Below are positions 2,833 to 4,674 of a stretch of DNA of 64,000 bases, piece after piece. The translations under genes were made by a program, and so were the position numbers. The DNA is taken from NCBI RefSeq assembly GCF_000942395.1, contig NZ_LN812102.1:217358-281357 (forward strand). Direction: 5' to 3'. Numbering within the stretch: position 1 is the first letter of the stretch; each line of letters begins with the position of its first letter. Source of the stretch: Risungbinella massiliensis (GTDB taxonomy: Bacteria > Bacillota > Bacilli > Thermoactinomycetales > Thermoactinomycetaceae). Below the pieces are notes generated by a model. The model searched no databases. It saw only the letters and a program-made list of their open reading frames with translations, and was not told the origin of the DNA.

Positions 2833-2857
2833 AGCTACTGAACTTTTAAAATTGAGG

Positions 2858-3049
2858 AGGATTATTAAAAAATGACACATTCTATAAGACTGCGTTTCCC
2901 TACTTTGAACTAGTAATTGAATACGTTCAAAGGCTCTGTGCTGTACACAGAGTCAACGGGATCAGTCTGTCCTTTTTTAATAATCTTCATTGCAAATGCT
3001 GTACTATTTTGTACTTGAAGAAAGGCGGATCGTTCTGCCTTTCTTTTTT
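2858..3049 (+). promoter_or_regulatory. Transcription attenuator (leader hairpins plus intrinsic terminator)
   Basis: Several mutually dependent pairings are visible. The leader ribosome site and start (2858-2872) pair with 2973-2987. CTTTGAAC (2903-2910) pairs with GTTCAAAG (2925-2932). CTCTGTG (2934-2940) pairs with CACAGAG (2946-2952). AAGAAAGGC (3018-3026) pairs with GCCTTTCTT (3037-3045), ending in a T-run to 3049. The last is a standard intrinsic terminator 168 bases before the ABC-F start. A ribosome stalled on the ErmDL-like peptide would prevent the upstream pairings, which is the logic of drug-induced read-through. The antiterminator pairing itself was not proven. Confidence 0.7.
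2872..2913 (+). CDS. ErmDL-like macrolide-sensing leader peptide
   Basis: A 13-codon ORF follows GAGGAGG (2854-2860) and encodes MTHSIRLRFPTLN. This is nearly the leader peptide of Bacillus ermD as I remember it (MTHSMRLRFPTLNQ), in which macrolide-bound ribosomes stall at the Arg-Leu-Arg (+X+) motif. Here the motif is residues 6-8. Instead of an erm methylase it precedes an ABC-F gene. Its 3' end (CTTTGAAC, 2903-2910) pairs perfectly with GTTCAAAG (2925-2932). Its ribosome site and start pair with 2973-2987, so ribosome position can reshape the RNA. Stalling here is inferred from the motif. Confidence 0.8.
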   Translation: MTHSIRLRFPTLN

Positions 3050-3116
3050 GTGTGCTAATTGATTACAAAACACTTGGGATCATTTTTACCTAATTTGTAC
3101 TAGTGGAGGGGAAAGC

Positions 3117-3140
3117 ATGCAATTCTTACTTTTCTTTTGA
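3117..3140 (+). CDS. Second leader peptide MQFLLFF of the ABC-F gene
   Basis: Seven codons (MQFLLFF, then TGA) follow a GGAGGGG ribosome site at 3104-3110. The stop codon abuts the first arm of a four-segment RNA switch (3139-3212), exactly where an erm-type leader ORF sits. Very short hydrophobic leaders are known for msrD (I recall MYLIFM). No arrest motif is certain here, so function rests on position, ribosome site and RNA structure. Confidence 0.6.
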   Translation: MQFLLFF

Positions 3141-3219
3141 TACGAGCTTTGGAGAATAAAAGCTCGTATCGGTTCTAGCTACCGATACGAAATCACATAT
3201 TTCGGGGGTAGCGAATATG
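3139..3219 (+). promoter_or_regulatory. Four-segment translational attenuator masking the ABC-F ribosome site
   Basis: Segment 1 (3139-3150) pairs perfectly over 12 bp with segment 2 (3159-3170). Segment 2 (3164-3173) can alternatively pair over 10 bp with segment 3 (3181-3190). GCTACC (3178-3183) and CGAAAT (3188-3193) pair with GGTAGC (3207-3212) and ATTTCG (3199-3204), burying the GGGGGTAG ribosome site in front of the ATG at 3217. This 1:2/3:4 versus 2:3 arrangement is the classical erm attenuator design. Stalling on the MQFLLFF leader would open segment 2 and free the start. Confidence 0.8.
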
Positions 3220-4674
3220 GAGCAAATTTGTTTTGAACTGGAAAATGTCGAAGTGACATATTTAGATAAAGATGTATTAAAAATCGAACGATTAGCAGTT
3301 CACCAATTGGATCGCATTGGGATTGTCGGGAAAAATGGTGCAGGGAAAAGCACATTATTGAAGTTGCTAACAGGTGAAATTCAACCCACCAATGGAAAAG
3401 TAAAACGGCACGTTGAGTGTGGTTATTTTGCGCAACTTGAATCTACAACTGATTTCGAAGCAGATGCAGCCTTACTTGGAAGATTAGCAGTTCCACAAAA
3501 TAGTGAGTCCTTAAGTGGTGGCGAACAAACGAGGCGAAAGCTTGCGCAAATGTTTACACATTACCATGAAGCCTTACTAATCGATGAGCCGACCACACAC
3601 TTGGATCTAGATGGAATCTCGTTCTTGCTTAATGAATTACGATATTACTATGGAGCACTTGTGCTAATTAGTCATGACCGTGCGGTCTTAGACGAGCTCG
3701 TCACAACCATTTGGGAAGTATGCGACGGTAAGGTGCGCGTTTATTCAGGTAATTACAGCAAATATATGGAGCAGAAGCAGTTAGAACGAGAACAGCAGAG
3801 TCGAGCTTATGAACAATACAAAAAAGAAAAAAGTCGTCTTGAAAAAGCAGCACAAGAGAAAATGAAGAAGGCGAAAAAAATTGCACAAGCAGGCAGCATG
3901 TCGAAAAAAGAGTCGAAGGCAAAAGCGAATCATCGCATGTTTGAGTCAAAATCCAAGGGCACGAGCCAAAAAGCGGTGCATCGTGCAGCTAAAGCGATTG
4001 AGCAGCGAATAGAAAAACTTCAGGAAGGCGAATCTGTACAACAGGAAAAGAAAATGGTATTCCGCCAGTCGAAAACATTGGAATTGCATAATAAATTTCC
4101 TATCATGGCAGACCGACTTACTCTTCAAGTGAAGAATCAAGTGTTATTGGATGAAGTAAGCTTTCAACTGCCGCTAGGGAAAACAATAGCGATTACTGGT
4201 GTAAATGGAAGTGGAAAAACTACATTGCTCCACCATATCGCTGTTGATGGTGAAGGTTTAACCATTTCACCAAAAGCCAAAATCGGTTATTTTCGTCAAA
4301 TGAGCTATCAATTTTCAGATGATGAAACAGTACTGGAATTTGTGAAGAATCGCTCCGAATATGATGAAGGATTTCTGAGGAGTTTTTTACATGCAATGCA
4401 ATTTGTCGGTACCGATATACGGAAAAATGTGAAGTCCTTAAGTGGTGGAGAAGCAGTTCGCATACAACTTTGTCAGCTCTTCTTAGGAGAATATAACATT
4501 TTATTATTAGATGAACCAACCAACTTCTTAGATATTCGTGCGATCGAAGCGTTAGAACGATTTATAGATGCTTATAAAGGAACAATTGTACTCGTTTCTC
4601 ATGATCAAGCGTTCATCCGCAATGTTGCAGATTTGCAGTATATCATTCATGAGAAAAAATTGAAGCAAGTGTAG
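3217..4674 (+). CDS. ABC-F ribosomal protection protein, Msr-type
   Basis: A 485-residue cytoplasmic protein with two ABC ATPase domains and no membrane segments, as in antibiotic-resistance ABC-F factors that enter the ribosomal E site and displace bound drugs. Walker A motifs are GKNGAGKST (38-46) and GVNGSGKTT (about 329-337), signatures are LSGGE twice, and Walker B motifs are LLIDEPTTHLD and ILLLDEPTNFLD. A charged, lysine-rich linker (about 190-290, rich in EQYKKEKSRLEKAA-like helix) joins them. Length and sequence are close to MsrD (487 aa), which protects against macrolides. The two upstream leader peptides support drug induction. Drug spectrum is inferred. A terminator follows directly. 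Confidence 0.88.
   Translation: MEQICFELENVEVTYLDKDVLKIERLAVHQLDRIGIVGKNGAGKSTLLKLLTGEIQPTNGKVKRHVECGYFAQLESTTDFEADAALLGRLAVPQNSESLSGGEQTRRKLAQMFTHYHEALLIDEPTTHLDLDGISFLLNELRYYYGALVLISHDRAVLDELVTTIWEVCDGKVRVYSGNYSKYMEQKQLEREQQSRAYEQYKKEKSRLEKAAQEKMKKAKKIAQAGSMSKKESKAKANHRMFESKSKGTSQKAVHRAAKAIEQRIEKLQEGESVQQEKKMVFRQSKTLELHNKFPIMADRLTLQVKNQVLLDEVSFQLPLGKTIAITGVNGSGKTTLLHHIAVDGEGLTISPKAKIGYFRQMSYQFSDDETVLEFVKNRSEYDEGFLRSFLHAMQFVGTDIRKNVKSLSGGEAVRIQLCQLFLGEYNILLLDEPTNFLDIRAIEALERFIDAYKGTIVLVSHDQAFIRNVADLQYIIHEKKLKQV

Follow-up and report, generated by a model that had tools for sequence, protein, structure and literature searches.

The window, a 64,000-nt stretch of the Risungbinella massiliensis genome, carries on its + strand a gene for an msr(G)-like ABC-F ribosomal protection protein of 485 aa (3217–4674). 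Its product scores 765.7 bits against the NF000168 profile, above the curated cut-off of 680, and so belongs to the Msr-family ABC-F proteins; the best plasmid record for the protein is 80.1% identical and annotated as msr(G). Upstream on the same strand, a sigma-70-like promoter, TTGACT-17-TATAAT with 11 of 12 consensus matches, is assigned by consensus match only at 2804–2832.

The leader holds two short frames, each with its own upstream ribosome-binding site, at 2872–2913 and 3117–3140. Because the consensus scan lists no second + strand promoter-like site between 2832 and the msr start, both leaders would be carried on one transcript. Rfam gave no match at gathering score anywhere in the window, and the phage records hold nothing similar to 2843–3216 at E 0.001.

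The first frame, uORF1 (2872–2913, +), encodes MTHSIRLRFPTLN up to its stop codon behind the SD GGAGG at 2856–2860, an ErmD/K-type '+x+' leader peptide. A multi-branched attenuator fold spans 2857–2988 (outer limits approximate) with a T-run at 2973–2978 and a z-score of −7.3, and the terminator scan places the intrinsic terminator of the transcription attenuator at 3017–3046 (hairpin −17.0 kcal/mol), both on the + strand. The MTHxMRLR-type leader and the intrinsic terminators of the erm(D/K) type are both present, with I instead of M as residue 5 in the window. This first lock is, by prediction, an erm(D/K)-type transcription attenuator.

Positions 2852–3051 share 86.7% identity with a leader on a Bacillus licheniformis plasmid, where it stands ahead of a predicted erm(D) gene. 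The transcription attenuators of erm(K)/erm(D) and mef(E) have leader peptides of the same type as uORF1; erm(K) is transcriptionally attenuated, with two adjacent terminators in its attenuator, as described in PMC4335068.

The second leader and its four RNA segments

The original prediction had placed, downstream of the transcription attenuator, a second short leader, MQFLLFF, and four RNA segments with perfect alternate pairings, and both are there. The leader frame, uORF2, occupies 3117–3140 of the + strand (ATG at 3117, TGA at 3138–3140) behind the SD GGAGGGG (3105–3111). On the same strand, segment 1 (3139–3150) starts inside the stop codon, segment 2 occupies 3159–3173, segment 3 3178–3193 and segment 4 3199–3212, the last including the SD-like GGGGG of msr (3204–3208). 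We call the leader together with the segments the LLF element below.

A direct helix search finds 12 Watson-Crick pairs in helix 1:2 (3139–3150/3159–3170) and 10 in helix 2:3 (3164–3173/3181–3190), while helix 3:4 consists of two runs of six Watson-Crick pairs each (3178–3183/3207–3212 and 3188–3193/3199–3204). The helices 1:2, 2:3 and 3:4 are mutually exclusive in that segment 2 pairs with segment 1 or segment 3, and segment 3 with segment 2 or segment 4. Dinucleotide shuffles of 3137–3216 never yielded two helices of at least 10 and at least 9 pairs with a common middle segment (0/2000), and still none did when the demand was relaxed to 7 and 7 pairs (0/2000).

RNA folding, proposed as a check in the original prediction, was run in silico on 3104–3240. 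The minimum-energy fold is 1:2 plus 3:4 at −43.7 kcal/mol with a z-score of −5.1, and none of 200 shuffles is as good. A chance fold is ruled out for the second element by the empty shuffle sets of 2000 and this z-score together. Helix 3:4 had also been said to bury the ribosome site. It does form in the minimum-energy fold, but only three of the five bases of the SD-like GGGGG are paired in it and 3205–3206 lie in an internal loop, so the site is partly paired.

Relatives and conservation of the element

Of 108 loci, 105 yielded a tblastn match at 1e-20 and were searched for the element upstream of the Msr-like gene; it lies directly upstream of msr in 61 of these 105. Sorted by identity to the window protein, it is present in 61 of 66 loci at ≥60% and in none of 39 loci below 60%; the five of the 66 related loci in which it was not found are L041, L042, L043, L046 and L092. 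The 61 rows, among which L002 and L040 are one place, reduce to 56 distinct sequences and, in the pair counts, to 55 distinct rows. These 56 sequences come from Bacillaceae, Caryophanaceae, Paenibacillaceae, one Streptococcus and other genomes of the class. The same element is found in the mef(F)-msr(G) operon on pMiCAN82a, a plasmid from Macrococcoides canis (L136, 6109–6244, 125.7 bits).

The covariance model R1 matches in 23 of 398 class genomes, with the chance-level L131 and the orphan L130 among these, and in 5 of 398 genomes of the phylum set. Three of the latter five are class members and two have E of about 0.008–0.01 per genome; a spread beyond the class is rejected, as the two non-class matches are at chance level for 398 genomes. 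L131 (36.3 bits, E 0.0024 for 398 genomes) is taken as chance as well, the LLF leader being absent in the stretch inspected. In L130, 1501–1600 hold only an orphan 3′ half of the element and the first msr codons, with a different gene about 100 nt on.

None of the 23 element-matching genomes of the class search is another member of the window's own family, Thermoactinomycetaceae, so msr and its leader (2872–4674) were probably acquired. A plasmid record of Stenotrophomonas rhizophila (L139, CP031730) contains an msr(G)-like gene with the LLF element and neighbours like those in Lysinibacillus plasmid L134, which is either a transfer or a mixed sample.

Two further loci show other arrangements at msr. 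In Gracilibacillus timonensis (L092), msr comes directly after a terminator-like hairpin, within about 60 nt, and the translational lock is absent. In Priestia megaterium (L138, 3501–6249), an erm(D)-type leader is followed by a putative RNA methyltransferase gene and then by msr(I), with no R1 match.

An ErmDL-type leader precedes msr or mef-msr in 44 of the 56 distinct loci, 43 by pattern filter plus L077 (MRLRFPTLTQ and stop), which was picked up by another filter that in turn missed L057, its twin L086 and L088. It lies directly before the LLF element in 36 (35 by filter plus L077) and before a mef preceding msr in 8, with mef decayed in L061. Another first-leader type, MAFLQLY, occurs in 6 of the 56; in L070, L071, L081, L094, L095 and L097 a leader like it replaces the ErmDL type before the terminator and the LLF element. 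No first leader was found by the search in L053, L064 and L083 or in the mef locus L093, and the mef loci L002 and L031 end too soon to judge. Among 49 msr-only rows, 39 have a T-run hairpin upstream of the LLF leader (hand count from the list, duplicates included). The LLF element, present in the window, is absent in the single erm(D) locus tested (L135).

The Peribacillus-type loci L070, L094, L095 and L097 have a second, partly degenerate LLF leader with helix 1 about 200–100 nt upstream of msr, making three leader frames in tandem with the degenerate copy upstream of the intact element. Some mef genes have an LLF leader and four-segment switch of their own (L060 1582–1707, L063 863–986, L078 1573–1699, L093 1574–1702 and L132 1501–1634), whose segment 4 differs from that of msr, the pairing logic being alike. 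The mef element is decayed in L061, L104 and L137, and none is found before mef in L067, L068, L073 and L136. Where mef has an LLF element of its own, the mef-msr operon should be gated once at transcription and twice at translation. A single loss of mef is not claimed: the tree, which left out three of 64 proteins (<400 aa before a stop), needs 8 mef changes and shows 22 of its 58 inner branches as open.

The RNA structure is conserved. Over the 55 distinct rows, 97.8% of the cells are paired in 1:2 plus 3:4, against 23–52% in slid controls, and 99.8% in 2:3, against 12–40%. In 1:2 plus 3:4, both-side changes occur in 9 cells against a shuffled mean of 1.3, a comparison inflated by the kinship of the rows, and 4 changed pairs are observed where one slid control reaches 6. 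In 2:3, a single pair accounts for all both-side changes, in two cells; one slid control has just as many, and 51 of 500 shuffles have at least as many changed pairs as observed. Because many helix pairs are invariant across the 55 rows and the controls sometimes match the observed changes, the covariation support for the helices is modest, and conservation bears more weight.

The peptide is conserved at its end. In the last four codons, the first is L in 56 of 56, the second L in 54 (F in 2), the third F in 56 of 56, and the last F in 31, Y in 24 and H in 1; four, five and two synonymous codons are used at L, L and F, respectively. The LLF leaders mostly have 6–7 residues within a range of 6–9 codons, start with ATG in 48 of the 56 sequences, TTG in 5 and GTG in 3, and stop with TGA in 43 and TAA in 13. 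The 13 rows without UGA lose the pair of the stop-codon G with segment 2, and the preference for UGA may come from this pairing.

The position of the helix relative to the frame is kept as well. Helix 1 starts one nt past the first base of the stop codon in 54 of the 56 sequences. Its conserved arm ends at most 15 nt from the first P-site base in 54 of the 56, and at 17 and 19 in two.

The element might be a relic or a simple translational coupling device, with the first, transcriptional lock alone regulating. It is indeed missing from the five related loci named above, and an orphan element was left in L130 after msr loss. Yet all segments, the amino acids despite codon change, and the stop-to-helix spacing are kept in 56 distinct sequences, and the element is retained with or without a mef gene, so that we hold this explanation improbable.

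The leader peptide and the level of control

The leader in the window ends in L-L-F-F-stop and fits the L-[IL]-F-x-stop end of the MsrDL type. MsrDL (MYLIFM) is arrested by erythromycin and azithromycin when M6 occupies the P site and the stop codon the A site; its L3 and I4 are critical, its F5 contributes to keeping release factors out, and UAA is favoured as its stop (PMC10314930). By its sequence the LLF peptide resembles MsrDL, a likeness limited to a short peptide, and its stop is mostly UGA whereas that of MsrDL is UAA. Toeprints are at 16 nt (PMC9226507), and once the last sense codon occupies the P site the ribosome front in the window would reach about 3150, the last base of segment 1.

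As in the erm type, the SD-led short leader frame overlaps segment 1. The label 'erm-type' in the original prediction holds for the RNA topology, with its four segments, 3:4 over the start region and no terminator, but not for the peptide, which follows the MsrDL pattern.

The second leader might nevertheless arrest in elongation, or with lincosamides, streptogramins or pleuromutilins, rather than by a MsrDL-like macrolide block of termination. Its peptide of 6–9 codons is not identical to MsrDL, UGA predominates among its stops, its last residue is F, Y or H and not M, and the folding model permits a range of ribosome positions. What speaks for the MsrDL-like arrest is that the leaders agree with MsrDL in having L-[IL]-F ahead of the final residue and in where the stop lies, that the ribosome front in the window would fall at the end of segment 1 when the P site holds the last sense codon, and that Msr proteins give protection from macrolides and streptogramin B (PMC10201436). 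Arrest of another kind therefore seems rather unlikely.

As to the level of control, a T-run (≥5 T in 8 nt) follows none of the three helices in any of the 56 elements, and the terminator scan lists no + strand terminator-like site between 3047 and 3216. Hence the second element should gate translation, not transcription, and its switch, like that of the erm type, has no intrinsic terminator. Hairpins gating transcription would be in line with streptococcal msrD, since msrDL, the closest msr leader studied that has a peptide of this kind, uses a terminator, but against the missing T-runs and terminators this is very improbable, and the terminator reading of the second element was rejected. A minus-strand terminator-like site at 3191–3163 is helix 2:3 read backwards and was given no weight. 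Because the downstream terminator that a stalled ribosome blocks in the MsrDL type is missing (0/56 T-runs), the element is filed as MsrDL-like in its peptide only and not as a member of that type.

The translational switch was followed in silico. In the free leader, the probability of 1:2 exceeds 0.9 in 51 of 56 sequences and that of 3:4 in 54. A stall was simulated in an equilibrium model by cutting away the RNA as far as the leading edge of a ribosome at the last codon. The probability of 2:3 then rises in all 56 but exceeds 0.5 in only 24, with 0.51 in the window and a value staying near 0 (0.01) in L052, and the mean probability of 3:4 drops from 0.97 to 0.60. Taken in isolation, helix 2:3 has greater stability than helix 3:4 in 41 of 56.

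Mean SD accessibility rises upon the simulated stall from 0.44 to 0.54. With the front shifted by −6 to +12 nt relative to the stop-codon position it is 0.52–0.58, the top (0.58) being at +9 nt. For ermC (pE194 leader), the same method gives 0.58 to 0.66 for the SD and 0.00 to 0.63 for the start codon; SD accessibility was dropped as a switching measure, being weak even for ermC, and helix probabilities were used instead. The switch in silico is partial. It agrees with a switch and is no proof of one, and the model does not point to the stop codon in particular, because SD accessibility is as high or higher with the front 3–9 nt further.

We consider it likely, from the sequence comparison and the folding model, that 3104–3216 is a translational attenuator of the Msr-type gene, in series with the erm(D/K)-type transcription attenuator on the same transcript. 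The comparison supports the original prediction of a second, translational and ribosome-controlled attenuator downstream of the transcription attenuator of one Msr-type ABC-F gene. The basis is the geometry, the conservation, the terminator absence and the partial refolding in silico; we infer the translation of uORF2, its drug-dependent arrest and the arrest site, the shared transcript and the regulatory outcome. The second lock is best read as an erm-like translational switch that is coupled to a MsrDL-like peptide and lies behind a transcription lock of the erm(D/K) type.

With no drug, ribosomes would complete MQFLLFF and depart, so that 1:2 and 3:4 would form and 3:4 would tie up the msr start region. 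A ribosome stalled on the leader would cover segment 1, and segment 2 would pair with segment 3. This pairing would free segment 4, and msr would be translated. As both locks would need opening, leakage would be cut twice.

The two locks may also differ in the drugs that open them. ErmDL stalls also with drugs lacking the C3 cladinose whereas MsrDL needs cladinose (PMC10314930), so that two such leaders in series may admit only cladinose macrolides. By this analogy, the two leaders could make up a coincidence filter (AND-gate), msr being made only if a cladinose macrolide stalls both, a tentative reading that we regard as a serious possibility somewhat short of a probable one.

Precedents and meaning

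The four-segment topology is that of erm(C). The erm(C)-type attenuator is like the window element in having alternate pairings in one leader, and its off state ties up the SD or start of the main gene, as is predicted for the window element. However, ErmCL is unrelated to the leader peptide of the window, and the erm(C) arrest takes place inside the frame whereas the arrest in the window is predicted at the stop codon.

The streptococcal mefA-msrD, as described in PMC10314930, is like the window in several ways. It has an Msr-family gene, a short hydrophobic leader (there L-I-F-M-stop), a ribosome that covers the first half of a hairpin when stalled at the stop (in the window by prediction), and a second, ErmDL-like leader upstream (there MefAL). 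Its two leader peptides are called a 'double-lock' and both are transcriptional, the second leader, that of msrD, acting through an intrinsic terminator, whereas the second lock of the window is a four-segment switch without a T-run. Variants of msrDL are referred to in the supplement of that paper. In Macrococcoides canis pMiCAN82a, the LLF element lies between mef and msr and an ErmDL-type leader before mef, as in the window except that mef stands between the two leaders and the window has no mef there.

Other ABC-F genes are reported to be under both transcriptional and translational attenuation, as is predicted for that of the window. For cplR of Clostridioides difficile, a synergy of the two was shown (PMC10201436). 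For vmlR of Bacillus subtilis, the leader is layered, with one uORF acting on a terminator and a further hairpin partly covering the SD; disruption of the SD hairpin made induction moderately lower and did not raise the uninduced expression (PMC9226507). As described in these papers, a single uORF serves both levels in cplR and vmlR, whereas the window has two uORFs, one per level.

The further background includes msrA, under translation attenuation according to the review PMC8615237, tlrB of Bacillus subtilis, for which the abstract of PMC6851288 names both attenuation kinds, ErmB with its two leaders (PMC8274638), and uORF4u (PMC10219788). The original prediction of a layered control not described before was too strong, since cplR (PMC10201436), vmlR (PMC9226507) and the mefA-msrD double-lock (PMC10314930) precede it.

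An arrangement of two leaders, with transcription gated by the first and translation by the second, was not found in the article texts searched in the open PMC library. Likewise, the strings MQFLLFF, MMTLLFY, MMMLLFY and MQFLLFY occur in no article text of that library. Layered ABC-F control is not new, and its two-leader form of transcription and then translation looks like a new wiring of known parts.

These results suggest that a MsrDL-like arrest peptide is coupled to a translational switch in one msr lineage and to a terminator in another, and that an erm(D/K)-type transcription lock was placed before the MsrDL-like translational switch. Carried by msr and mef-msr genes alike, among them the named mef(F)-msr(G), the element is the mark of a whole lineage of such genes. 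If the coincidence filter is true, a drug AND-gate would have spread through Bacillaceae, Caryophanaceae, Paenibacillaceae and Macrococcoides. The system offers a direct way to ask why two locks are needed on a resistance factor and whether these differ in the drugs that they filter.
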